Source of the DNA: Thioalkalivibrio thiocyanodenitrificans ARhD 1
GTDB taxonomy: Bacteria; Pseudomonadota; Gammaproteobacteria; Ectothiorhodospirales; Ectothiorhodospiraceae
DNA length: 64,000 nucleotides
Assembly: GCF_000378965.1 (NCBI RefSeq)
Contig: NZ_KB900536.1
Span: 755,583 to 819,582, forward strand
Reading direction: 5' to 3'
A model generated the notes under the pieces. The model had not been told where the DNA came from, ran no database searches, and worked only from the letters and a program-made list of their open reading frames with translations. The first letter of the stretch is position 1. Every line of letters begins with the position of its first letter. Positions 9,784 through 32,613 of the stretch are shown piece after piece. The translations under genes were made by a program, and so were the position numbers.

Positions 9784-12060
9784 ATGGACAAGACCACACT
9801 CGATCAAGCCGCCCTCGACTACCACCTGCTCCCCACTCCCGGGAAGATCTCGGTGGTACCCACCAAGGGACTTACCAACCAGCGAGACCTGGCACTGGCC
9901 TATTCGCCGGGCGTGGCGGCCGCCTGCAAGGCGATCGAGGCCGATCCCGCGCAGGCGGCAAGGCTTACGGCACGGGGCAACCTGGTGGCCGTGGTGACCA
10001 ACGGCACGGCGGTACTGGGCCTGGGGGCCATCGGACCCCTGGCGGCCAAGCCGGTGATGGAAGGCAAGGCGGTTCTGTTCAAGAAGTTCGCCAACATCGA
10101 CGTGTTCGATCTGGAGCTCGACGAACGGGATCCGGACAAGCTGGTGGACATGATTGCCGCGCTGGAGCCGACCTTCGGCGGCATCAACCTGGAAGACATC
10201 AAGGCGCCCGAATGCTTCCAGATCGAAAGCCGCCTGCGCGAGCGCATGAATATCCCCGTGTTCCACGACGATCAGCACGGCACGGCCATCGTTGTGGCGG
10301 CTACGGTGCTCAATGGCCTCACCCTGGCCCGCAAGGAGATCAGCGAGGTCAAGCTGGTCACTTCCGGCGCCGGGGCCGCCGCCCTCGCCTGCCTGGATCT
10401 GCTGGTCACCCTGGGCTTGCGCATGGAGAACATCTGGGTGACCGATCGACAGGGCGTCGTCTACAAGGGGCGTGCCGACGAGATGGAGCCCTTCAAGGCA
10501 CGCTATGCCCAGGAGACCGAGGCACGCACCCTGGGAGAGGCCATCGATGACGCTGACGTATTCCTGGGCCTGTCCGCCGGCGGCGTGCTCAAGCCCGAGA
10601 TGGTGGCGCGCATGGCCCCCTCCCCGCTCATTCTGGCCCTGGCCAATCCGGATCCGGAGATCCTGCCCGAGGAGGTGGCCACGGTACGCGACGATGCCAT
10701 GATGGCCACCGGGCGCTCCGATTACCCCAATCAGGTGAACAATGTCCTGTGTTTTCCGTTCATCTTCCGCGGCGCCCTGGACGTGGGCGCGAAGGCCATC
10801 ACCGAGGAGATGAAGGTGGCCGCCGTGCGTGCCCTGGCCGACCTGGCGCGCGCCGAGCCCTCCGATCTGGTTGCCAAGGCCTACGGCGAGGACAACCTGC
10901 GCTTCGGACCTTCCTACCTGATACCCAAGCCCTTCGACCCCCGGTTGATCGTGAAGATCGCGCCCATGGTGGCCAAGGCGGCCATGGAGTCCGGGGTCGC
11001 CACCGCGCCCATCGACGACCTCTGGAGCTATCGCGACCAACTGAACAACTTCGTCTACCAGTCAGGCTTCATCATGAAACCGGTGTTCGCCGCCGCAAAG
11101 GCCGCCCCCCGGCGCGTTGTGTTTGCGGAGGGTGAGGAAGAGCGGGTACTCAGGGCCATTCAGACGGTGCTCGAGGAGGGGCTGGCGGAACCCGTGCTGA
11201 TCGGCCGGCCGGACGTGGTGCAGATGCGCATCGACCGGATCGGACTGAAACTGGAGCCGGGCAAGGATTTCGAACTGGTGAACCCCGATTCCGATCCCCG
11301 CTACCGGCCGCTGTGGACCGATTACCATGAACTCATGGGCCGCAAGGGCGTCACCCCGGAGATCGCCAAGCAACTGATGCGCAGCGACACCACGCTGATC
11401 GGCTGCATGCTGCTGCGTCATGGCTATGTGGATTCGCTGATCTGCGGCGTGACGGGAAGCCTCGCCACCCATCTGCAGCACGTGTCCGACGTCATCGGAC
11501 TGGCACCGGAGCAGCGCAACTTTGCCACCATGAACCTGCTGATGCTGCCGCGCGGCACCATGTTCATCTGCGACACCTACGTGAACGAGGATCCCGATGC
11601 CGAGACCATTGCCGAGATCACCGTCATGGCCGCGGAAGAGGTGCGCCGCTTCGGGCTGACACCCAAGGTCGCCCTGGTGTCACACTCCAACTTCGGCAGT
11701 GTCCGATCTGCCGCGGCCCGCAAGATGAGCGAGGCGCGGGCCATCATCGAGCGCATGGCGCCGGGACTGGAGGTGGACGGCGAGATGCATGCGGACGCCG
11801 CCCTCAAGGAAGAACTTCGCGAGCGCCTGTATCACGGTTGTCAGCTCAAGGGCGAGGCCAATCTGCTGATCATGCCCAACGTCGGCGCCGCCAACATCTC
11901 CTTCAACCTGCTCAAGGCCTCCAGTGGCGAAGGGGTGAGCGTCGGTCCGATCCTGCTCGGTGCGGCGCGGCCGGTGCATGTACTCACGGAGACCGCCTCC
12001 GTGCGGCGCCTGGTGAACATGACGGCGCTGGCGGTGGTGGAGGCGCAGAAAGAGAGTTGA
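9784..12060 (+). CDS. maeB: NADP-dependent malic enzyme MaeB (malic enzyme-phosphotransacetylase fusion)
   Basis: A 758-residue protein of the long MaeB type, decarboxylating malate to pyruvate with NADP. Residues 1-420 form the malic enzyme part ([47 protein letters not shown]). Residues 430-758 form a phosphotransacetylase-like domain ([13 protein letters not shown] through [29 protein letters not shown]), regulatory rather than catalytic in known members. It stands alone, with gaps on both sides. Confidence 0.95.
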
Positions 12061-20737: not shown

Positions 20738-22468
20738 TCAGGTTCCTGTGGATTCTTCGGGATTCAGAAGGGACTCACCGGGCGCCACCCGTGTAAAGCG
20801 CACCTGCCCGGTGTCCATGATGAACTGCTCATCCCGGTATCGGATCTGGGTGAATACGGAGCTGCCGAGATCACCGGCGTCCGTGAAATCTTCGCGGTAG
20901 TGGGCGCCGCGGGAGTTCTCGCGCCTGAAGGCCGCCGTGGCGATGGTGCGGCTGACCATGATGAGATTTCGCAGGTTCATCCAGTCGTGCCAGCTCACGT
21001 TGTACGCCCGGCTGCCATTGCCGACGCCGACCTCTTCGAGGCTCCCCGCCAGGTCATCCAACTCGCCCAGGGCGCGCCTGAGGTCCACCTCGTTGCGCAT
21101 GATGCCCACCCGGTCCCACATGATGTCGAAGAGCGATTCCCGCAGGGGCGTGAGATCGCTCATGGGCTTGTCCAGGGGACGCATGCATTCGTCCACCACC
21201 TGTTCGATCACGGCATTGTCCGGATCGCGGAAGGCGCCCTCCCGGGGCACCCACCCGGCCATGCTGTCACCCGCCACCCCGCCGAACACGGTGGAGTTGG
21301 CCACCCCGTTTCCGCCCAGGCGGTTGGCCCCGTGCACGCCGCCGGTGTCCTCGCCCGCGGCGAACAGGCCGGGCATGGCCGTGGTGCAGTCCGGATTGAA
21401 CGTCACGCCGCCCATCATGTAGTGCGCGGTGGGCACCACTTCGACCAGTCCGCCGGCCAGGTCAAAGCCGCAATCGGCACAGCGTTCCACCATGCCCTTG
21501 AATCTTGTGCGCACATCGTCAGGACCCAGATGGCTCATGCGGATATGCACGCCCCCGTTGGGGGTGGTGCGGCCGGCGCGCATCTCGCTGTAGATGCCCC
21601 GGGATACGATGTCGCGGGTGGCACGCTCGGCACGCGCGTCATACTGTTCCATGAAACGCTCACCGTTGCCGTTGAGCAGATGCCCGCCGGCACCGCGCAG
21701 GCCCTCCTCCAGCACGGTCCCGGTCATGCGCGTATGGTCCCCCGCCAGCAGGCCGGTGGGATGGAACTGCACCATCTCCATGTCCCGCAATGCCAGGCCG
21801 GCGCGCAATGCCATGGCCATGCCATCACAGCTCTTGTCGCCGCTGGGGGTATGGTACTTGTACATGGTGGGGCCACCCCCGGTGGCCAGCAGCACGGCGC
21901 GGGCCTGCACGAACCGGAAACCGCCGCTGCGCATGTCGATCATGAGCACGCCGGAGATGCCGGAGCCGTCCTTCGCCGGGACGATCGCAACGGCCCGGTG
22001 CTCCTCCATGCGCTCCACATCCCTGGCCCAGACCTGCTCGGCCAGGCGGTTGATGATCTCGATGCCGGTGAGATCGCCCTTGTGCACGGTGCGGTCAAAG
22101 GTCTGCCCGGCAAAGGCCTTCTGGTGCAGGGAACCGTCCGGATTCCGGTCGAAGAAGCAACCGAGCTCGTTCTCGAGTTCGTGGACCCGCTCGACGGCGG
22201 TGGTGACGAGCTTCCAGGCGAGATCCTGGTCCGGCAGCCACTTGCCGCCCTCGATGGTGTCCATGAAGTGGCGCTCGATGGAATCGCCCGGCGCCAGGGC
22301 CACGTTGTAGCCCCCCTGCACCATGCGCGTGCAGCCGCACTTGCCCAGCAGGCCCTTTACGGCCACGGTGACCTTGAGGTCCGGCGCGGCGCGCTTGGCG
22401 TGCAGGGCGGCGAACAGGCCTGCCCCGCCCGATCCCAGGATCAGGATGTCGGTCTTGACGGTGTCCAT
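20738..22468 (-). CDS. SdhA/FrdA-like flavoprotein, divergent
   Basis: A 576-residue flavoprotein of the succinate dehydrogenase/fumarate reductase family: FAD fold ILILGSGGAGLFAALHA, then MVQFHPTG, GERFMEQY, RDIVSRGI, VVPTAHYMMGGV and HGANRLGGNG. Active-site His, Arg (RDIVSR), His (AHYMMGG) and Arg (GANR) of the family are present. The His that carries covalent FAD (usual RSHT) is Cys46 (GCTRMVQGG), and the loop before LRGAGG differs (TVLEEG for VTEG, with about six extra residues). It is therefore a distant branch, possibly with non-covalent FAD and a different dicarboxylate substrate. The partner subunits are encoded upstream in the same run. Confidence 0.82.
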   Translation of the reverse strand: MDTVKTDILILGSGGAGLFAALHAKRAAPDLKVTVAVKGLLGKCGCTRMVQGGYNVALAPGDSIERHFMDTIEGGKWLPDQDLAWKLVTTAVERVHELENELGCFFDRNPDGSLHQKAFAGQTFDRTVHKGDLTGIEIINRLAEQVWARDVERMEEHRAVAIVPAKDGSGISGVLMIDMRSGGFRFVQARAVLLATGGGPTMYKYHTPSGDKSCDGMAMALRAGLALRDMEMVQFHPTGLLAGDHTRMTGTVLEEGLRGAGGHLLNGNGERFMEQYDARAERATRDIVSRGIYSEMRAGRTTPNGGVHIRMSHLGPDDVRTRFKGMVERCADCGFDLAGGLVEVVPTAHYMMGGVTFNPDCTTAMPGLFAAGEDTGGVHGANRLGGNGVANSTVFGGVAGDSMAGWVPREGAFRDPDNAVIEQVVDECMRPLDKPMSDLTPLRESLFDIMWDRVGIMRNEVDLRRALGELDDLAGSLEEVGVGNGSRAYNVSWHDWMNLRNLIMVSRTIATAAFRRENSRGAHYREDFTDAGDLGSSVFTQIRYRDEQFIMDTGQVRFTRVAPGESLLNPEESTGT

Positions 22469-22510: not shown

Positions 22511-23125
22511 CTACCTGGAGGCGACGCCCAGGCTCGCCAGCACTGCGTCACGCCGTTTGGCTCCTTCCTCGCGCACATGGTCGTAGAGACTGTTGCCGGT
22601 GCTGTCCATGGCCACAAGAAGCGGGCCGAATCCCTTGATGCGGAACTTCCACAGGGACTCCGGGTTGAGATCGTCCAGATCCACGTCCTCGATGGCCTCC
22701 ACCCAGGTGGTCTCGAGCGCCGCGGTTCCACCCACGATGGCGAGATACACGCCGCCCAGATCCTGGAACGCCTGCAGCGAGTCATTGAGCAGTCCGCCCT
22801 TGCCGATGATCATGCGCACCCCGTACTGCTCCATGAGCGGTCGGGTGAAGCGTTCCATGCGTGCGCTGGTGGTCGTGCCGATGCACACCGGTGCATAACC
22901 GGCCGGATACTCATCGCTCTTCTCCACCTTGCGCACGTTGGGCGCGGTGTGGATGACCGCGTGGCCGTTGAGGTCAAAGTGCGTGGTGCGCCCCCGGTCG
23001 AACATGTGGATCTGGGTGGCGTCGCGGATCCCGAACAGGGTCCCGTTGAGGGTGACCGTGTCGTTCACACGCCAACTGCGGATGGTCTCCTCGGAGACCG
23101 GGGTTGTGATGTCGTGATGTGCCAT
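22511..23125 (-). CDS. Class I fumarase/tartrate dehydratase beta subunit-like
   Basis: A 204-residue protein matching the C-terminal (beta) half of iron-sulfur fumarases: TLFGIRDATQIHMF, GTTTSARMERFT, MIIGKGGL. With the alpha subunit it would hydrate fumarate or a related unsaturated dicarboxylate. GGAG lies seven bases before the ATG. The gene follows the alpha subunit after ten bases, so the two are produced together. Substrate specificity between fumarate, tartrate, mesaconate-like and other acids cannot be read here. Confidence 0.85.
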   Translation of the reverse strand: MAHHDITTPVSEETIRSWRVNDTVTLNGTLFGIRDATQIHMFDRGRTTHFDLNGHAVIHTAPNVRKVEKSDEYPAGYAPVCIGTTTSARMERFTRPLMEQYGVRMIIGKGGLLNDSLQAFQDLGGVYLAIVGGTAALETTWVEAIEDVDLDDLNPESLWKFRIKGFGPLLVAMDSTGNSLYDHVREEGAKRRDAVLASLGVASR

Positions 23126-24197: not shown

Positions 24198-24935
24198 TCA
24201 GATCAACAGCAGGGCGCCGGAGACGATGAACAGCCCCAGCATCAATCGGCGGAATCCGGCCTCGCTGGTGCGCTGAAACAACTGCAGGCCGATATAGCCG
24301 CCGGCGGCCACGAACGGCACGCACCACAGGATGTCGTAGAGGGTCTGCCTGCCGAGTGTGCCGGTACCGCCGAACCACGCCAGCGTATAGAGATGAACCA
24401 GCAGCACGTAGGGCTGGAACACCCCCCGCTGCTCCTGGGCGCTCCAGCCGCGAAGCCCGCACCAGAGGCTGGGGAATACCCCGTTCAGGCTCGTGGAGCC
24501 GCCCATGAAACCACCCAGCCCGCCGACGCCGGCATCCAGTACCCTGCCCGTGCGGCGGGACAGCGGCAGCACCGGCATCGCCGCCCGGCTGAGCATATAC
24601 AGACTGTAGACGATCAGCAGCGCCCCCACAGTCTGGCGGATCAGGGCCGGATCCACGTGCCGCAGCGCCGCCACGCCCAGGGGCACCCCCAGCGCCGCGC
24701 CGATCAGGAACGGATTCAGACGCTTCATGTCCACGGAGGACCACAGCCGCCAGATGAGCGCGAGGTTCAATACCGTCGAACAAAGGATCACCAGGGGCAC
24801 GGCCCGTTCCGGGGAGATGGCATGCAGCCAGATGGCCATGCCCACCAGCCCGAAGGCGAAGCCCGAGGCGCCGGCTGCCAGCGAGGCCGCGAAGGCCCCG
24901 AAGGTCAGCACCGTCAACTCAAACCACATAGGCAA
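24198..24935 (-). CDS. TauE/SafE family sulfite exporter-like membrane protein
   Basis: A 245-residue protein with about seven or eight transmembrane segments and the internal repeat pattern of the family (AASLAAGASGFAFGLVGMA, GGLGGFMGGSTSLNGVFPSLW). TauE-type carriers export sulfite produced by desulfonation, and related genes accompany suyAB in known sulfolactate degraders. The start lies 17 bases inside the end of the preceding membrane anchor gene, so they are translationally linked. Confidence 0.85.
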   Translation of the reverse strand: MPMWFELTVLTFGAFAASLAAGASGFAFGLVGMAIWLHAISPERAVPLVILCSTVLNLALIWRLWSSVDMKRLNPFLIGAALGVPLGVAALRHVDPALIRQTVGALLIVYSLYMLSRAAMPVLPLSRRTGRVLDAGVGGLGGFMGGSTSLNGVFPSLWCGLRGWSAQEQRGVFQPYVLLVHLYTLAWFGGTGTLGRQTLYDILWCVPFVAAGGYIGLQLFQRTSEAGFRRLMLGLFIVSGALLLI

Positions 24936-25263
24936 AGACCACGCCGGCGATGACCGTCAGTCCGGCGGCCACTGCCAGCAGGTCTTTCTGCCACCCGCGC
25001 CAGGCGAGGAACTCAAGCGCCATGAGACGCAATCCGCCGGTCAGGTGGGCGGCCAGCAGAATCACCAGGCCGGCTTCGGCAAACTTCACCAGAGGCCGGT
25101 CGGCCCAGGCGAAAAACTCATCCATGCGTGCCGCCTCGTTCAACGCCATGCCCAGCACCCAGAAATGGAACGGCAGGAACAGGGTCAACACGATGCCCGA
25201 GATCCGATGCACCAGGAAGGCCCACCAGGCCGGATGATTGCGCGCACGCCAGTCGGTCTTCAT
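24919..25263 (-). CDS. SDH-like membrane anchor/cytochrome b subunit (second)
   Basis: A 114-residue protein with three transmembrane segments; the start at 25263 is where homologous sequence begins (MKTDWRARNHPAWWAFLVHR). It has the family pattern LVHRISGIVL, FLPFHFW and AAHLTGGLRLM, whose His residues could bind heme b. It overlaps the preceding anchor gene by four bases. It would pass electrons from the flavoprotein and iron-sulfur subunits to quinone. Confidence 0.82.
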   Translation of the reverse strand: MKTDWRARNHPAWWAFLVHRISGIVLTLFLPFHFWVLGMALNEAARMDEFFAWADRPLVKFAEAGLVILLAAHLTGGLRLMALEFLAWRGWQKDLLAVAAGLTVIAGVVFAYVV

Positions 25264-25598
25264 GCGAACACCCCCCAGACGGCGCGCATGCCCCAGATGC
25301 CAAGGGCGAGCGCGAGAATCACCAGCAGGATGTCGACCCAGGCACCGCGCCGGCCCAGCCATTCATCCAGAACGGCGCGCATGCCCACTGGCGCGTGTAC
25401 GACCACCGCCAAAAGGAACACCACGTAGAACAGGAACCAGAGCCAGTTGCCCTGGGTACGCTCCAGGATGGCGGCCGCCGACAGGTCACCCCGCATGGCG
25501 ACGATGATGGTCACCAGGTGAATGAACACGCACACGCCCAGCACCATGGCGCTGATGCGCTGAGCCGCCCACAATCGCGCCTGGGTGCCGGTTCTCAC
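25260..25598 (-). CDS. SDH-like membrane anchor/cytochrome b subunit (first)
   Basis: A 112-residue three-helix protein with AAQRISAMVLGVCVFIHLVTI and FLLAVVVHAPVGMRAVLDEW, typical of succinate dehydrogenase anchors, with two candidate heme-ligand His residues. It overlaps the iron-sulfur subunit gene by four bases and the second anchor by four bases, giving order B-C-D. The A subunit gene is displaced 3 kb downstream, after the exporter and fumarase genes, which is unusual for sdh operons. Confidence 0.82.
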   Translation of the reverse strand: MRTGTQARLWAAQRISAMVLGVCVFIHLVTIIVAMRGDLSAAAILERTQGNWLWFLFYVVFLLAVVVHAPVGMRAVLDEWLGRRGAWVDILLVILALALGIWGMRAVWGVFA

Positions 25599-26311
25599 AG
25601 ATCACCCCGCAGCGCCGCCTTCATGACGGCGCGTTTGAGTCCGGCAATCCCGGCGGTGGGGGAAATGTGCTTCGGGCAGCGTTCCGTACAACTTACATGG
25701 GTATGGCAGGCGAGGCAGCCGGCGTCGTCTCCCACGGCGCGCAGGCGCTCGTTGCGGGCACCGTCACGCTCATCGTTGATCAGAGTCCAGGCGCGATTGA
25801 GCGCGGCCGGGCCAAGGTAATCGGGCCGCCACTGCACCACGTCGCAGGACGCGTAGCACACGCCGCAGCCGATGCACTCGATGCCGGCATCGGCATTCCT
25901 GCGTTCCGGGGAATCCGGCCTGACCCGGGCGAAAGGGTCCTCGCGGGTGGCGGTGGGATGGAACTGCCCACGCGCCCTCGCCCACTTGTCGAAAAACGCC
26001 GACATGTCCGTGACCAGGTCACGGACAACCGGCAGGTGCGCCAGGGGCGCCAGTTCCAGTGCGCCGTCCTTTGCCACCTTGGAGACATGGGTCCGGCAGG
26101 TCCATCGGGCCACGCCGTTGACGGTCATGGCACAGGAGCCGCACATGCCCACCCGGCAGGCGAAACGGTACGCAAGCGTGGGGTCCATGTGACGCTGAAT
26201 GTGGCTCACCACATCCAGCACGGTCTGGCTCTCGAGCCGCGGCACCTCGAATGTCTGGTACTCGCCCTGCTCGTCTCCCCGCCACACGCGGACCTGCAGG
26301 ATATCCGACAT
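25595..26311 (-). CDS. SDH/FRD-like iron-sulfur subunit
   Basis: A 238-residue protein. I choose the ATG at 26311, preceded by GGAG at ten bases, over an upstream ATG without a ribosome site. A [2Fe-2S] ferredoxin domain (ACRVGMCGSCAMTVNG plus WTC) is followed by a C-terminal two-cluster domain (CIGCGVCYASC, CLACHTHVSCTERCP). All cluster ligands are present. It links the flavoprotein to the membrane anchors. Confidence 0.9.
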   Translation of the reverse strand: MSDILQVRVWRGDEQGEYQTFEVPRLESQTVLDVVSHIQRHMDPTLAYRFACRVGMCGSCAMTVNGVARWTCRTHVSKVAKDGALELAPLAHLPVVRDLVTDMSAFFDKWARARGQFHPTATREDPFARVRPDSPERRNADAGIECIGCGVCYASCDVVQWRPDYLGPAALNRAWTLINDERDGARNERLRAVGDDAGCLACHTHVSCTERCPKHISPTAGIAGLKRAVMKAALRGDL

Positions 26312-26399: not shown

Positions 26400-27563
26400 T
26401 TACGCGCTTCGGTACAAGCGCGTCAGGACGAACTCACGATGACCCAGGGCCTCGGCCGCGGTCATGCGGCCATTGGCGGTGCGGATCATGCACTCGAGCA
26501 GGGCCTGACCCGCGTCGTCCATGTTCATGGTCTTCTGCAGCAGACCCGTGACGTCCACGTCCACGTGTTCGCTCATGGTGCGCACCGTGCGGGGGTTGGC
26601 CGTGATCTTGATCACCGGCACGATCGGGTTGCCAATCACGTTGCCCTGCCCCGTGGGGAAGAAGTGCACCACGTAACCGCCGGCGGCCACGAGGGTGACC
26701 ATCTCGGCCGCAGCGGATGAAGAGTCCATGAAGAACAGACCGTCACCCTTGGGCTCCTCGGCGGGCTCCAGCACCCCGTGCACCTTGCACTTCTTGCCGA
26801 TCTTCTGGATGTTGCCCAGGGCCTTCTCCTCGATGGTGGTCAGACCACCCTCGATATTGCCCTTGGTGGGCTGGGAGTCGGACAGGTCGTTGGTCTTGTT
26901 CTCGTTGATGAAATCGTTGTAGGCGCTCCAGGTGGCCATGAAGTGATCCGCCACCTCCTTGCTGATGCAGCGATCGCGCACCAGGTGTTCGCCGCCGGTG
27001 ATCTCGGAGGTCTCCCCGAACACCAGGGTGTTGCCGTTCTCATAGAGCCGGTCGAAGGCCGCGCCGACACAGGGGTTGGCACCCAGGCCGGAGGTGGTGT
27101 CGGACTCGCCGCACTTGGTGGACACCCACAGTTCCTTGATGGGGCACGGCTCGCGTTGCAGCTCGCTGGCCCACTGCACGAACTCCTTCGCCTTGCGGGA
27201 GGCGGCGGCGATGGTGTTGATATCGCCATTCTGTTCGATGCTGAAACCGGCAACCGGCTTGCCGCTCTCGGCAATGCCGTCGACCACCTTCTGGGTCCAG
27301 CCGGGTTCGATGCCGATGACCACCACGGCGGCCACGTTGGGGTTGCGCCCGGTGCCAATCAGGGTGCGGAAGTGAAGTTCCAGATCCTTGCCGAACTGCA
27401 GGCGGCCATAGGGATGCGGCAACGCCAGGGTGCCCTTGATGTTGTTCGCAACGGCCTCACTGGCGGCATTGGACAGATCGTCGAGGGGAAGGATGATCAC
27501 GTGGTTGCGGACACCCACGCGGCCGTTCTCACGGCGATAACCGAGAATTGTCTGATCAAGCAT
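26400..27563 (-). CDS. suyB: 3-sulfolactate sulfo-lyase large subunit SuyB
   Basis: A 387-residue protein of the UxaA/altronate dehydratase family ([57 protein letters not shown]). With SuyA it cleaves 3-sulfolactate into pyruvate and sulfite. The ATG at 27563 follows GGTGG at eight bases; a GTG at 27575 is the alternative and would overlap suyA. Other UxaA-family dehydratases look similar, but the surrounding slcC, comC, cuyA and TauE genes make SuyB the best reading. Confidence 0.88.
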
Positions 27564-27568
27564 GTGTG

Positions 27569-27850
27569 TTACCACCGTTTCGTCTTGAGGTTGTGAACAT
27601 GCACGTGCTCGCCTGCCTGGGCAGGCTTCACCATGCGCCCGATGTCCGTGCTGTACTTGATGACGGTGTCACCGTCAGCCAAGTCGCGGATCGCGAATTT
27701 ATGGCCAATGGGGATGTCGTTACGGACCTTGACCTTGAGGTCCTTGTCCTGGTCCATGATCCAGCCATTGACCTCCTGGCCGGCCTTGACCCCCTCAACC
27801 ACGACGACCCCCACTGAGTCGTTCTGGTCATGAACGATGAAATGAATCAT
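27569..27850 (-). CDS. suyA: 3-sulfolactate sulfo-lyase small subunit SuyA
   Basis: A 93-residue SAF-domain protein ([32 protein letters not shown]), matching the small subunit of SuyAB. The start at 27850 has a near-perfect ribosome site (GGAGG, five bases upstream); longer readings of the frame lack one. It is the first gene of the leftward run and therefore marks where regulation acts. Confidence 0.9.
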
Positions 27851-28394: not shown

Positions 28395-29354
28395 ATGTTC
28401 AAGCTATTGAAACGATCCGCCCTGGTGGGCGCCTGCCTGGCCGGCGCCCTCGGTATGGCGGCCGGTCCCGCCGCTGCCGCGTTCCCGGAGCGCACGGTCA
28501 CCTACGTGAACCCGTTCAGCCCCGGCGGTGAGTGCGACATCGTCCAGCGCATGCAGCAGGAACCCCTCAAGCAGGAACTGGGGCAGGACGTGGTCATCGA
28601 GTACCGTGAAGGCGGCGGCGGCGCCGTGGGTTGGGCGCACGTGAGCCGGCAGCGGGCCGACGGCTACACCTTCGCCTGCTTCAGTATCCCGCATATCATC
28701 GCCCAGCCGATGGTCCGCAATCCCGGTTACCAGACCGACGATCTGCAGATCATCTACACCTACCACTCCACGCCGCAGGTCCTTGTGGTCCGCGAAGACA
28801 GCCCCTTCAAGACCCTCGAGGACTTCATCAACGCCGCCAAGGAAAACCCCGGTTCCATCACCGTGGGCGGCACCGGTACGGCCAGCGGCAACCACCTCGG
28901 CGCCGTGCGTCTCATGAGGGCGGCGGACATCCGCCTGACCTGGATTCCGTTCCCGGGTTCCGGCCCGACCATCCCGGCGCTCCAAGGTGGCCACGTGGGT
29001 GCGTTGATGACCAACTCCACCATGTACGTTCAGAACAAGGACCGGTTCCGTGCCCTGGCCGTGTCGACCGAGGAGCGCGTGCCGTTCATCCCGGACGTGC
29101 CCACCTTCAAGGAACTGGGTTACGACGTGATCGAGGCCATCTACCGCGGCGCCCTGGGTCCCGCGGGCATGCCTGAGGAGGCCGTCAACCGCATCGCCGA
29201 GGCCCTGGACAAGGTGAACCGCGCCCAGGCAGAGCGCAAGCAGGAGATGGGCTTCCAGATGCACTATTACGGTCCGAAGGAAAGTGCCGAGCTCGTGGAG
29301 CGTCTGAAGGTCGATTACGGGGCGCTGCTCGAAGAACTGGGCATGGCCCGGTAA
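28395..29354 (+). CDS. slcH: TTT-type periplasmic solute-binding protein (SlcH-like)
   Basis: A 319-residue Bug/TctC-family binding protein with a signal peptide (MFKLLKRSALVGACLAGAL to AAAAFPERT). The ATG at 28395 follows GGAGG at six bases and fits the signal peptide; an upstream ATG does not. It has the family loops YVNPFSPGGECD and GGTGTASGNHLG. Binding proteins of this family bring carboxylates to a TctAB-type membrane pair. Sulfolactate is the likely ligand from context; a sulfonated dicarboxylate is possible. Confidence 0.85.
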   Translation: MFKLLKRSALVGACLAGALGMAAGPAAAAFPERTVTYVNPFSPGGECDIVQRMQQEPLKQELGQDVVIEYREGGGGAVGWAHVSRQRADGYTFACFSIPHIIAQPMVRNPGYQTDDLQIIYTYHSTPQVLVVREDSPFKTLEDFINAAKENPGSITVGGTGTASGNHLGAVRLMRAADIRLTWIPFPGSGPTIPALQGGHVGALMTNSTMYVQNKDRFRALAVSTEERVPFIPDVPTFKELGYDVIEAIYRGALGPAGMPEEAVNRIAEALDKVNRAQAERKQEMGFQMHYYGPKESAELVERLKVDYGALLEELGMAR

Positions 29355-29380
29355 TCACCATCTTTATGTAGGAACTGAAC

Positions 29381-29414
29381 CGTTGAACGGGGTCCCCAGG
29401 GACCCCGTTCAACG
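29381..29414 (+). promoter_or_regulatory. Strong hairpin between binding-protein and permease genes
   Basis: A perfect 16-bp inverted repeat (29381-29396 and 29399-29414) with a two-base centre, so about 14 bp would form in RNA. No T-run follows. Such hairpins after binding-protein genes commonly protect the upstream message and reduce expression of the membrane subunits, which fits the stoichiometry needed here. Confidence 0.7.
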
Positions 29415-29549
29415 ATTTCAGGAGGCATCCCGTGCTTCCGGGCCGCCTCAATGGTTCTCACCCGTACCGTTCAAAGCGGGCGGAGATGTACCGGGACAAC
29501 GTCCCGCAAACACGTACGATACCTATCCAGACTCAGAGGCGACGCCGAC

Positions 29550-31073
29550 GTGATCGAATCTGTCATTTCCGGCTTGATGGCCGTTCTCGGCTGGGAAGCC
29601 CTGTTGCTGGTCGTCGCGGGCACGATCGTCGGCCTGTTCGTCGGCTCGGTGCCCGGGCTCACGGCCACCATGGCCCTGGCGCTGCTGGTGCCGTTCACAT
29701 TCACCATGGATCCGCTCAGCGCGATGGTGCTGCTCGGAGCGGTCTACGTATCTTCCATGTATGGCGGAGCATTCACCGCCATCCTGATCAACACGCCGGG
29801 AACGCCGGGGGCCATCGCAACGACCCTCGACGGATATCCCATGGCACAACAAGGCAAGGCGGAACTGGCCATTCTGGCCGCCACCGTGGCATCGGTGGTG
29901 GGCGGCATCATCAGCGTCATCTTCGTTTTGCTGCTTGCAGCACCGCTGACCGAGATCGCCATCCGGTTCGGGCCTGCGGAGTATTTCTGGGTGGCGGTCC
30001 TGGGCCTCAGCCTGATCGGCGCGCTGTCCACGGGCTCCCTGGTCAAGGGCCTCCTCGGCGGCGCTATCGGCATGCTCATCGGCACCATCGGAGTGTCACC
30101 CCTGGGCGGCGAATCGCGATTCCTGTTCGGCACGTCCACCCTGCAGGGGGGCGTGAACCTACTGGTGGCCCTGATCGGCATCTTCGCCATACCCGAACTC
30201 ATCCGGCTCGCGGCAACCGCCATGCGTACGGTCGACGTCGATTACTCGCGAGGCGGCGAAAAACTCAGTCACGTCTTCAGGATCACCCTGGCAAAGCCTT
30301 TCAACGTCATCCGGTCATCGGTGATCGGGCTGATCATCGGCATCATCCCGGGCGCGGGCAACAACGTGGCGGGCCTGGTGGCCTACAACGAGGCGAAGCG
30401 TGCCTCCAGTGACTCCCAGAGTTTCGGCAAGGGCAACGTGGACGGGGTGATCGCCTCGGAAGCCAGCAACAACGCGGCCGTGGCAGGCAGTGTCGTGCCC
30501 CTGCTCACGCTGGGTGTCCCCGGTTCGCCGCCGGCGGCAGTGATGCTGGGCGCGCTCATGCTGCACGGTATCCGGCCCGGCACGGCCCTGTTTGTGGAGA
30601 CCGGCACCCTCGCCTACGGGTTCATATTCTCCCTTGGCGTATCCGCGATCGCACTGCTGGTGGTGGGCGTGATCGGCGGCCGGCTCATCTGCCGGGCGGT
30701 CTGCTCGGTACCGCTCGGCTACCTGGTTCCGACGATCGCGTTCATGACCATCCTGGGCGCCTACTCGATGCGCAACAGCCTGGTGGACGTGTTCATGATG
30801 ATCGGACTCGGGGTGTTCGCCTACGTGGTGCGCTACTTCGGCATCCAGGCTGCACCGATCGCTCTGGGGCTCATTCTCGGGCCGATCGCCGAAGACGGGT
30901 TCGGCATGGCCATGCTTCAGGGCACCGCCCGCTTCGGCCCGGACGCGGCCGCACTGGCGCTGTTCACCAATCCGTTATCGTGGATGCTGATCGCCCTGAC
31001 GGTACTGACCCTGATCTGGCCCGCGGTCCAGAACTACCGTGGCCGCAAACGTATCCTGGTACAAGGCGAGTGA
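29550..31073 (+). CDS. TTT transporter large membrane subunit (TctA family)
   Basis: A 507-residue protein with about twelve hydrophobic segments and the conserved loops GLFVGSVPGLTATMALALL, GAFTAILINTPGTPGAIATT and ASNNAAVAGSVVPLLTLGVPGSP. I place the start at the GTG at 29550, which gives the usual family length and has GAGG about ten bases upstream; an upstream ATG at 29451 would add an unlikely basic tail. It imports the ligand of the preceding binding protein with a cation gradient. Confidence 0.88.
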   Translation: MIESVISGLMAVLGWEALLLVVAGTIVGLFVGSVPGLTATMALALLVPFTFTMDPLSAMVLLGAVYVSSMYGGAFTAILINTPGTPGAIATTLDGYPMAQQGKAELAILAATVASVVGGIISVIFVLLLAAPLTEIAIRFGPAEYFWVAVLGLSLIGALSTGSLVKGLLGGAIGMLIGTIGVSPLGGESRFLFGTSTLQGGVNLLVALIGIFAIPELIRLAATAMRTVDVDYSRGGEKLSHVFRITLAKPFNVIRSSVIGLIIGIIPGAGNNVAGLVAYNEAKRASSDSQSFGKGNVDGVIASEASNNAAVAGSVVPLLTLGVPGSPPAAVMLGALMLHGIRPGTALFVETGTLAYGFIFSLGVSAIALLVVGVIGGRLICRAVCSVPLGYLVPTIAFMTILGAYSMRNSLVDVFMMIGLGVFAYVVRYFGIQAAPIALGLILGPIAEDGFGMAMLQGTARFGPDAAALALFTNPLSWMLIALTVLTLIWPAVQNYRGRKRILVQGE

Positions 31074-31077
31074 TGAC

Positions 31078-31560
31078 ATGACGAACATGAAATCTTACAA
31101 CACCGATCTCATCGCCGGCGCCGGGGCCCTGGCCATCGCCGCCCTGTTCGGCTTTGCGCGCGAGCCCTGGACACCGTTGAGTGCACGCTGGCCCAACGCC
31201 ATCCTGGTGTTCATCCTGATCTGCGCCGTGTTCCTGCTCATCCGTGCCTTTATCAAGCCGGAGCGCTCCCCGCTGTTCGATGAAGGCAGCCGGGTGCGCA
31301 TGGCGGTCTCGGTCGTCCTGCTGCTGGTGTGGGCAACAATGATGGAGTATCTGGGTTTTGTCGTCACCAGCGTCCTGATCTTCTACGCCTTCTGGTGGTA
31401 TGTGACCCGGGCCGCCAAGAAAGTGGAGGGCGATGCTTCCCCCATCGGCCTGATCGCCTATCTCCGGGCCGCCGGGGTCGTTATCGCGCTGGTCGGCACG
31501 TTCTATTTCATATTTGCCAGGTATCTCTATGTGCCGCTCCCGCGGGGAATCCTCATCTAG
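31078..31560 (+). CDS. TTT transporter small membrane subunit (TctB family)
   Basis: A 160-residue protein with four hydrophobic segments, typical of TctB (NTDLIAGAGALAIAALFGF, VVLLLVWATMMEYLGFVVTS). It begins four bases after the large subunit stop. Together with the two preceding genes it forms the tripartite tricarboxylate transporter. The order here is binding protein, large, small. Confidence 0.82.
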   Translation: MTNMKSYNTDLIAGAGALAIAALFGFAREPWTPLSARWPNAILVFILICAVFLLIRAFIKPERSPLFDEGSRVRMAVSVVLLLVWATMMEYLGFVVTSVLIFYAFWWYVTRAAKKVEGDASPIGLIAYLRAAGVVIALVGTFYFIFARYLYVPLPRGILI

Positions 31561-31602: not shown

Positions 31603-32613
31603 ATGCACCTGTCCCGCTATCCCCGTCTGCACTTCGCGCATCTCCCGACTCCGCTGGAGCCCATGGAGGCCCTGTCGAAGGAACTCGGAGGGCCCCGGTT
31701 ATGGATCAAGCGCGATGATTGCACCGGGCTGGCCACCGGCGGCAACAAGACCCGCAAACTGGAGTTCCTGATGGCCGATGCCCTGGACCAGGGCTGCGAC
31801 ACGGTGATCACCCAAGGGGCGGTCCAGTCCAACCACGCCCGCCAGACGGCGGCCATCTCTGCCAAGCTGGGATTGCAGTGCCACATCCTGTTGGAGAACC
31901 GTACCGGCTCCTCTGACCCGGATTACCTGGGCAACGGCAATGTACTGCTGGACAGGCTGCTGGGCGCCAGTGTCTCCACCCGTCCGGGCGGTGCGGACAT
32001 GGCCCGCGAGATGGACCTGCTCGCGGACCAACTGCGCGCGGACGGACACAAGCCCTACATCATCCCGGGCGGCGGTTCCAATCCGGTGGGTGCCCTGGGC
32101 TACGTGAATGCCGCGCTGGAGCTGCTCACCCAGGCCAATGCCATGGGGCTTCGCATCGACCACGTGGTCCATGCGACCGGCAGTGCGGGCACCCAGGCCG
32201 GTCTCGTCACCGGGCTGTCGGGCGCGCGCAGCGGCATCCCCGTACTGGGCATCAGCGTCCGTGCGCCCCGGGAGGTTCAGGAAAAGGCGGTGTTCGAACT
32301 CGCGCGGCGTACGGCAGAGCATCTGGGCATCGGTGACGTGATCGCCCGGGAGGACGTGGTGGCCAACAGTGACTACGTAGGCGAAGGCTATGCCCTGCCC
32401 ACGGAGGGCATGGTGGAGGCCGTCAAGCTGCTGGGCCGCACCGAGGCGATCCTGCTTGATCCCGTCTATTCCGGCAAGGGCATGGCGGGCCTGATCGATC
32501 TGGTCCGCAAGGGTCACTTCAGGAAGACCGACAACGTGGTGTTCCTGCATACCGGGGGCAGCGCTGCCTTGTTCGGTTATCCGGACATCTACGGGTTATC
32601 GCCGGAGGGTTGA
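31603..32613 (+). CDS. cuyA: L-cysteate sulfo-lyase CuyA-like PLP enzyme
   Basis: A 336-residue PLP enzyme of the D-cysteine desulfhydrase/ACC deaminase family. [13 protein letters not shown] supplies the PLP Lys49, with [12 protein letters not shown] and the phosphate loop [10 protein letters not shown]. CuyA releases sulfite and ammonia from L-cysteate, giving pyruvate. D-cysteine desulfhydrase is the close alternative by sequence, and the sulfonate context decides for CuyA. AAGGAG precedes the ATG at eight or nine bases. Confidence 0.82.

Follow-up and report, generated by a model that had tools for sequence, protein, structure and literature searches.

Covalent attachment of FAD raises its potential by ~100 mV and is described as needed for succinate oxidation, whereas soluble fumarate reductases and L-aspartate oxidase, which hold FAD non-covalently, are described as only reducing fumarate (PMC9557727 and PMC10238741). 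In E. coli fumarate reductase, Thr244 makes a hydrogen bond to the substrate carboxylate in the transition state and Arg287 mediates proton transfer (PMC10238741). On the sulfonate side, the SlcC/ComC racemase, the (R)-sulfolactate lyase SuyAB and the sulfite exporter TauE have been described as a set (PMC12421959), and a thesis by J. Mayer, cited in PMC11489063, reportedly has Roseovarius nubinhibens breaking down homotaurine through 3-sulfopropionate, then sulfoacrylate, then sulfolactate. Here we examine sdhA', a gene for a complex II-type flavoprotein in a 64,000-nucleotide stretch of Thioalkalivibrio thiocyanodenitrificans ARhD 1 (contig NZ_KB900536.1, positions 755,583 to 819,582), referred to below as the window. 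SdhA' belongs to a new complex II variant with a likely role in C3-sulfonate catabolism. Because it is a complex II flavoprotein that lacks the flavin anchor and a substrate contact and lies amid sulfite-releasing genes, it probably oxidises a sulfonate look-alike of succinate and not succinate. The reading we prefer, with a probability of roughly 60%, is that the complex oxidises 3-sulfopropionate via quinone and that the product is hydrated to (R)-sulfolactate.

Residue changes and phylogeny of the flavoprotein

The sdhA' open reading frame (ORF) runs from 22468 to 20738 on the minus strand and encodes 576 aa with the two domains of SdhA, FAD_binding_2 (PF00890) and Succ_DH_flav_C (PF02910). 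It matched 31 NCBIfam families and is below the cut-off for each of the 25 best shown. The top family is TfrA (NF004900; 505.8 bits, cut-off 718), and the protein also falls short of the curated SdhA/FrdA models (TIGR01816, 334.8 vs 727.35; TIGR01812, 426.2 vs 567.3). A preliminary description of this DNA had reported a cysteine at the FAD-histidine position and the retention of the FHPTG, AHYMMGG and GANRLGG motifs. Both observations hold: the segment reads KCGCTRMVQGG instead of RSHT..QGG, Cys46 aligns with the FAD histidine of E. coli FrdA, and all three motifs are present.

Our alignment of 128 family rows (including at least one duplicate pair, as L090 and L149 are the same gene) shows how constant these changes are. 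Cys46 is invariant, and the covalent-FAD histidine of SdhA is thus missing from all 128 rows. The alignment also revealed changes that the preliminary description did not contain: Glu254 occupies the position of E. coli FrdA Thr244 in 128/128 rows, Arg282 replaces Leu three residues before the catalytic Arg, again in 128/128, and loop position 247 is basic in all rows but one (117 Arg, 10 Lys, 1 Trp). The catalytic Arg285 is kept, as are His236, His349 and Arg383, all invariant, so that of the catalytic Thr and Arg of SdhA only the Thr has been exchanged. The 20 comparison rows show His (11), Ala (5), Ser (2), Asn (1) or a gap (1) at position 46, Thr (15), Ser (3), Asp (1) or Gln (1) at position 254, and Leu (18), Thr (1) or Ile (1) at position 282. 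Thr244 and Arg287 of FrdA were identified with the threonine in MTEG and the arginine in GPRD, assuming that the first Met is unnumbered; they align with Glu254 and Arg285 of SdhA'.

The loop before the catalytic region, to which the preliminary description had also drawn attention, is changed in sequence, TVLEEGLRGAGG standing in place of (V/M)TEGCRGEGG, and exceeds the loop of E. coli FrdA by six residues. Its length alone is not distinctive, because the loop of M. smegmatis Sdh1 is just two residues shorter in the alignment with the comparison rows, and we rejected loop length as the key difference. An AlphaFold model of SdhA' built from a 9-row alignment has a mean pLDDT of 70, with active-site segments below 50. 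The invariance of Cys46 fits a covalent Cys-FAD bond, although a motif conserved for other reasons would look alike.

We placed the family in a quick maximum-likelihood tree of 107 rows, comprising 88 family rows and 19 SdhA, FrdA, NadB and other homologues (fragment L118 was dropped; comparison rows were named by motif, FrdA and Sdh1 by PDB records). A single branch separates the 88 family rows from the 19 comparison rows (SH-aLRT 100, stem 3.38), and the internal order of the comparison rows is unsure because several have long branches. Within the limits of such a tree, the SdhA' family does not belong to the SdhA/FrdA clade; the phylogeny that the preliminary description had proposed thus puts the Cys46 family outside SdhA, FrdA and NadB, and not inside ordinary SdhA. 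Elsewhere in its genome, T. thiocyanodenitrificans carries an ordinary SdhA-like protein with the His (L002), plus a NadB-like protein.

The gene run and its conservation among relatives

In the window, sdhA' is the ninth gene of an 11-gene minus-strand run, in the order suyA, suyB, sdhB, two Sdh_cyt anchors, tauE, fumA, fumB, sdhA', slcC, comC. Intergenic gaps range from -17 to 186 bases using the listed starts, three starts having been shifted to a downstream ATG, and the run is likely co-transcribed. The features are as follows, with scores against cut-offs.

27569..27850, minus strand: suyA-like small subunit, 93 aa; matches the N-terminus of galactarate dehydratase weakly, kept with suyB in relatives
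26400..27563, minus strand: suyB-like (R)-sulfolactate sulfo-lyase large subunit; PF04295 + PF20629, D-galactarate/altronate dehydratase superfamily
25595..26311, minus strand: sdhB-like iron-sulfur subunit, start inferred; PF13085; TIGR00384, 189.2 vs 88
25260..25598, minus strand: second Sdh_cyt membrane anchor; PF01127
24919..25263, minus strand: Sdh_cyt anchor, cytochrome b556-like, start inferred; PF01127; TIGR02970, 50.2 vs 52.3
24198..24935, minus strand: TauE/SafE permease, proposed sulfite exporter; PF01925
23136..24011, minus strand: fumA, class I fumarase alpha, start inferred at ATG; PF05681; NF004885, 305.5 vs 276
22511..23125, minus strand: fumB, class I fumarase/tartrate dehydratase beta, proposed sulfoacrylate hydratase; PF05683; TIGR00723, 146.8 vs 145.15
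20738..22468, minus strand: sdhA', complex II-type flavoprotein bearing Cys46 and Glu254, proposed catalytic subunit of a 3-sulfopropionate dehydrogenase; PF00890 + PF02910
19807..20733, minus strand: slcC-like D-2-hydroxyacid dehydrogenase; PF00389 + PF02826
18640..19644, minus strand: comC-like Ldh2-family dehydrogenase; PF02615; best match NF040650, L-sulfolactate dehydrogenase, 224 vs 500
28398..31560, plus strand: tctC/tctA/tctB-like tripartite tricarboxylate transporter, named by eye; candidate uptake system, divergent from the run
31603..32613, plus strand: cuyA, cysteate sulfo-lyase; NCBIfam equivalog NF052482, 554 bits vs 450

The names suyA, suyB and slcC reflect superfamily membership and synteny (suyA, slcC, comC, tauE). 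No curated SuyAB model matched the window's suyA or suyB in the profile libraries used, and the sole solved structure matched by its SuyB is a galactarate dehydratase. The window's tctC ORF matched no NCBIfam family; relatives of tctC/A/B adjoin the module in other loci, and plasmid records annotate them as a tripartite tricarboxylate transporter. With cuyA the window holds two C3-sulfonate desulfonation systems, and Xsc lies ~240 kb past the window end on the same contig. A malic enzyme at 9784-12060 was considered for a sulfomalate-decarboxylating step and rejected: it is MaeB-type with a phosphotransacetylase domain (1193, cut-off 1178), and it is separated from the run by an apparent RND efflux set, named by eye.

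A model that accommodates these genes is that SdhA', SdhB and the two Sdh_cyt anchors would form a membrane-bound 3-sulfopropionate:quinone oxidoreductase. The complex would oxidise 3-sulfopropionate, a sulfonate analogous to succinate, to 3-sulfoacrylate and pass the two electrons to the quinone pool; the class I fumarase FumA/FumB would hydrate 3-sulfoacrylate to (R)-sulfolactate, SuyAB would split this into pyruvate and sulfite, and TauE would export the sulfite. SlcC and ComC would interconvert the sulfolactate enantiomers through sulfopyruvate, and CuyA and Xsc would provide alternative desulfonation routes. We infer the substrate, the intermediate, the direction and the stereochemistry, for which naming rules make (R)-sulfolactate the spatial equivalent of L-malate. 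The sulfolactate made would then be (R), the form cleaved by SuyAB, and a racemase would therefore not be required.

A contig scan detected at least 580 relatives of SdhA', of which the best 80 were kept, none of these being titled as R. nubinhibens. Among their 48 loci of at least 19 kb, where any match over half of the query was counted and weak paralogues are therefore included, sdhB, sdhC and sdhD were each found in 47, fumA and fumB each in 44, suyB and comC each in 22, slcC in 12, tctC in 26 and tauE in 7. The iron-sulfur subunit and anchors present in the window are therefore the rule among relatives. Across all 80 loci, many of them on short contigs, suyB was found in 27, comC in 33 and slcC in 16 (the latter two with a floor of 40% identity), and 25 of the 27 suyB loci also carry comC or slcC. 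FumA is of a close type (68-77% identity) in 49 loci and of a distant type (33-37%) in 18; the suyB loci have the close type in 26/27 and the distant type in 0/27. A class I fumarase-type hydratase stays with the complex though its type varies, from 68-77% down to about 30-37% identity.

Other genes recur near the module. A thiamine-diphosphate enzyme occurs in 26/80 of these loci and in 11/32 loci of the Rhodobacteraceae set described below (e.g. L184:13724-15349, L054, L064, L079, L086, L172). It is about 524-560 aa long and acetolactate-synthase-like, and it stays below the cut-off of all 25 top-scoring NCBIfam families shown. Matches of at least 43% identity are present in 39/120 loci. It is perhaps a desulfonase or a sulfo-2-oxoacid decarboxylase. 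A methylmalonate-semialdehyde dehydrogenase-like gene, possibly a 3-sulfopropanal dehydrogenase, lies near the module in five loci (L183:15409-16899, and L075, L079, L085 and L086, 60-63% identical to that of L183). A sulfatase-like protein, recognised by eye, is present in 10/80 loci (including L037, L025, L027, L030, L031, L065 and L072), and a small NIPSNAP-family protein in 5/120 (L186:16383-16697, L182:16365-16679 and L183:17135-17461 among them).

Fifteen plasmid records carry SdhA', annotated as FAD-binding protein in 12 and as fumarate reductase in 1, with no annotation there in 2; we examined the gene contents of eight of them. In Methylobacterium radiotolerans the run of the window recurs: two genes are of the UxaA family, one encodes an NAD(P)-dependent oxidoreductase and one is an Ldh gene, and DctA and ABC genes stand in place of TctABC. 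The Paracoccus versutus locus includes hydroxyacid and Ldh dehydrogenases, TctABC, YeiH and TauE; that of Pseudomonas sp. MPC6 has TctABC, TauE, a sulfite oxidase and an additional gene resembling methylmalonate-semialdehyde dehydrogenase. The NT-26 plasmid encodes YeiH-like, TauE and TRAP proteins downstream of the module on the same strand, together with a sulfolactaldehyde-reductase-like protein just under its cut-off (324 vs 348) and a succinate-semialdehyde dehydrogenase over its own (691 vs 646); this last pair is what a route from 3-hydroxypropanesulfonate to 3-sulfopropionate would need. TauE, TctABC and the thiamine-diphosphate enzyme lie by the module in Sulfitobacter THAF37, and TctABC adjoins it in Sulfitobacter S190 and P. 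seriniphilus, where no desulfonase is annotated near the module. About 11 kb from its module, THAF37 also encodes a 3-sulfinopropanoyl-CoA desulfinase (L181:24415-25587; 635 vs 600 bits), of which L168 has a 71% relative; 3-sulfinopropionate is chemically close to 3-sulfopropionate.

The eighth record, from Haloarcula sp. GH36, has a 50% identical sdhA' accompanied by SdhB, TauE, a ComC-like gene (35%; 340 bits vs 500) and two UxaA-family genes, the larger 33% identical to SuyB of the window; membrane anchors are not annotated at this locus. In place of the class I fumarase, the other strand encodes, next to sdhA', a protein that scores 323 as argininosuccinate lyase (cut-off 279.5; L185:10284-11786) and 257 against XcbC (cut-off 575). 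In bacterial coenzyme M synthesis, enzymes of the XcbC type yield sulfoacrylate. The Haloarcula protein may be a hydratase or simply an argininosuccinate lyase.

Association with desulfonation genes across genomes

Most of the tested genomes that lack suyB at the sdhA' locus encode SuyB elsewhere: of 53 such genomes, 30 were tested, and 24 of these have SuyB at 67-78% identity at another site. Nine SuyB-less genomes, namely the remaining six and three from the class sample described next, were tested for other desulfonases; Xsc is over the cut-off in 5/9, CuyA in 5/9 and one or both in 7/9.

In 369 genomes sampled evenly across the class, the window's genome among them, sdhA' occurs in 9, SuyB in 13, Xsc in 21 and CuyA in 11. 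SuyB, Xsc or CuyA is present in 9/9 genomes with sdhA' and in 18/360 without it (p 1.5e-11; p 2e-10 when the window's genome is left out), the genomes being not fully independent because two pairs among the nine share a genus.

The family is also common in the GTDB family of L090 (titled Rhodobacteraceae), where 33 of 295 genomes carry sdhA'. All 32 loci examined of these 33 have sdhBCD and fumAB, with fumA 30-35% identical to the window's; tauE is present in 17, tctA in 11, slcC in 1, and comC and suyB in none, and a CuyA-like match occurs in 3 (one at 66%, two at 38-40%). Single loci encode a sulfoacetaldehyde dehydrogenase SauS over the cut-off (L152; 703 vs 600), a SorA/SorT-like sulfite oxidase below it (L172; 168 vs 600) and a YeiH-type exporter below it (L151; 118 vs 233). 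Xsc is over the cut-off in 28/33 genomes with sdhA' vs 24/47 without (p 0.002; 47 tested of 262). The five Xsc-less genomes have CuyA at 66-68% (G397, G446) or a thiamine-diphosphate enzyme (G446, G473, G506, G635) within about 10 kb, a result that is biased because four of the five loci were extended only for the missing Xsc.

Alternative readings and comparison with known systems

That the enzyme acts on a different substrate, as the preliminary description proposed, is well supported by the loss of the FAD His and the catalytic Thr, by the separate clade and by the tight linkage to desulfonation genes. The recurrent core is one dehydrogenase complex and one hydratase, located beside genes for sulfolactate/sulfopyruvate desulfonation or, in most cases, sharing a genome with them; 3-sulfopropionate is the simplest substrate for such a core. 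Sulfosuccinate, at which the same description hinted, is possible and comes second. It would be converted to sulfofumarate, 3-sulfomalate, sulfo-oxaloacetate (by ComC or SlcC), sulfopyruvate and (R)-sulfolactate, which SuyAB would cleave. Such a route employs every enzyme gene in the window's run, both dehydrogenases included; it agrees with the presence of comC or slcC in 25/27 suyB loci, and the surroundings of the pocket, where Arg247, Arg282 and Glu254 together add one net positive charge, would suit the trianion. However, it requires an additional oxidative decarboxylation, and 3-sulfopropionate is preferred because oxidation and hydration reach (R)-sulfolactate without that step. In addition, the suyB loci L015 and L089 have neither dehydrogenase in the stretch examined, the 32 Rhodobacteraceae loci keep sdhA'BCD and fumAB but show slcC once and comC never, and SlcC/ComC are already accounted for as a sulfolactate racemase (PMC12421959). 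We therefore hold a sulfosuccinate dehydrogenase to be rather improbable.

A succinate dehydrogenase isoenzyme or fumarate reductase that lies by chance within a sulfonate gene run would explain the full SdhABCD-type set and the conservation of Arg285, His236, His349 and Arg383. It would do so with neither the catalytic Thr nor the covalent-FAD His, the latter being described as required (PMC10238741; PMC9557727), in any of the 128 rows, in a separate clade and in a genome that already has an ordinary SdhA with His, and it leaves the association with desulfonation genes unexplained; we regard it as very improbable. Somewhat more weight, while still unlikely, goes to a dehydrogenase for another compound, sulfonated or not (a longer sulfonate, for example), whose product only sometimes reaches sulfolactate and whose true pathway includes the thiamine-diphosphate enzyme. 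The frequency of that enzyme near the module (26/80 and 11/32 loci) and the local presence of suyB in just 27/80 loci, many on short contigs, and in 0/32 speak for it, as do two genomes without a recognised desulfonase (L033 and L046). On the other hand, the commonest stable core, dehydrogenase plus hydratase, is an exact fit to 3-sulfopropionate, and SuyB, Xsc or CuyA accompanies sdhA' in 9/9 genomes of the class sample.

Several observations weigh against 3-sulfopropionate oxidation. Glu254 would put an extra anion at the site of the carboxylate-bonding Thr, no obvious match for a sulfonate; Arg247 and Arg282 may offset this, the pocket of the model being too poor to place them. Homologues with non-covalent FAD reportedly cannot oxidise succinate (PMC9557727), and an oxidising enzyme without the His therefore has to rely either on FAD bound through Cys or on a lower-potential substrate couple. 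The conserved thiamine-diphosphate enzyme has no role in the simple 3-sulfopropionate scheme and is not explained by it. Neither L033 nor L046 has a desulfonase over the cut-off: L033 has a SuyB-like protein at only 32% and a CuyA-like one at 369 bits (cut-off 450), and L046 has none. On the NT-26 plasmid no desulfonase is annotated in the stretch examined, and the YihU-like reductase and succinate-semialdehyde dehydrogenase could instead convert dihydroxypropanesulfonate to sulfolactate. Finally, the hydration step is doubtful in Haloarcula because the sole hydratase candidate passes the ArgH cut-off and lies on the opposite strand.

A bolder version of the 3-sulfopropionate reading, which we consider quite unlikely as a whole, is that Cys46, Glu254 and Arg282 define a new complex II branch with Cys-linked FAD, a sulfonate counterpart of the succinate-to-oxaloacetate arc of the tricarboxylic acid cycle running through 3-sulfopropionate, sulfoacrylate, sulfolactate and sulfopyruvate. 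Its inputs would be homotaurine, 3-hydroxypropanesulfonate or homocysteate, and the thiamine-diphosphate partner would be an undescribed desulfonase or sulfo-2-oxoacid decarboxylase.

Gut Firmicutes, Enterococcus gilvus among them, are reported to produce 3-sulfopropionate from dihydroxypropanesulfonate, Cupriavidus necator is reported to produce it from homotaurine, and Bilophila to respire it to H2S as an electron acceptor source; the same source states that there was no earlier report of bacterial 3-sulfopropionate degradation (PMC11489063). How Bilophila breaks it down is described as unclear in a review (PMC12890257). We found no gene assignment for 3-sulfopropionate or sulfosuccinate oxidation in the literature covered (titles and abstracts, with subscription journals mostly outside the search). 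If 3-sulfopropionate is the substrate, this family, present in 9/369 genomes of the class sample and 33/295 of the Rhodobacteraceae set, would supply marker genes for a sulfonate-cycle step not assigned to genes in that literature, would correct records labelled merely FAD-binding protein or fumarate hydratase, and would offer a natural experiment on replacing covalent histidyl-FAD and the catalytic threonine in complex II.

With canonical complex II, the SdhA' complex shares a two-domain FAD flavoprotein, an iron-sulfur subunit, two membrane anchors, the catalytic Arg and the conserved His and Arg residues; it differs in Cys46 for the FAD His, Glu254 for Thr, Arg282 for Leu, a long-stemmed clade of its own and a sulfonate gene run. 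TfrA, the thiol:fumarate reductase flavoprotein, is the best-scoring curated family by profile; SdhA' is far below its cut-off and is partnered by SdhB and two Sdh_cyt anchors, not TfrB. L-aspartate oxidase (NadB) belongs to the same fold family, and the NadB-like rows compared also lack the FAD histidine, but they fall in a different clade, whereas SdhA' has an iron-sulfur subunit and membrane anchors. The 3-sulfopropionate degradation of R. nubinhibens (thesis cited in PMC11489063) has the same predicted intermediates. Another close system is the gene set of Chromohalobacter and Paracoccus (PMC12421959), whose four functions, SlcC, ComC, SuyAB and TauE, all adjoin in the window by homology and synteny (ComC-like at only 224 vs 500) and flank its dehydrogenase. 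Unlike that set, the window has an inserted dehydrogenase-hydratase pair, which could feed sulfolactate from a reduced C3 sulfonate.

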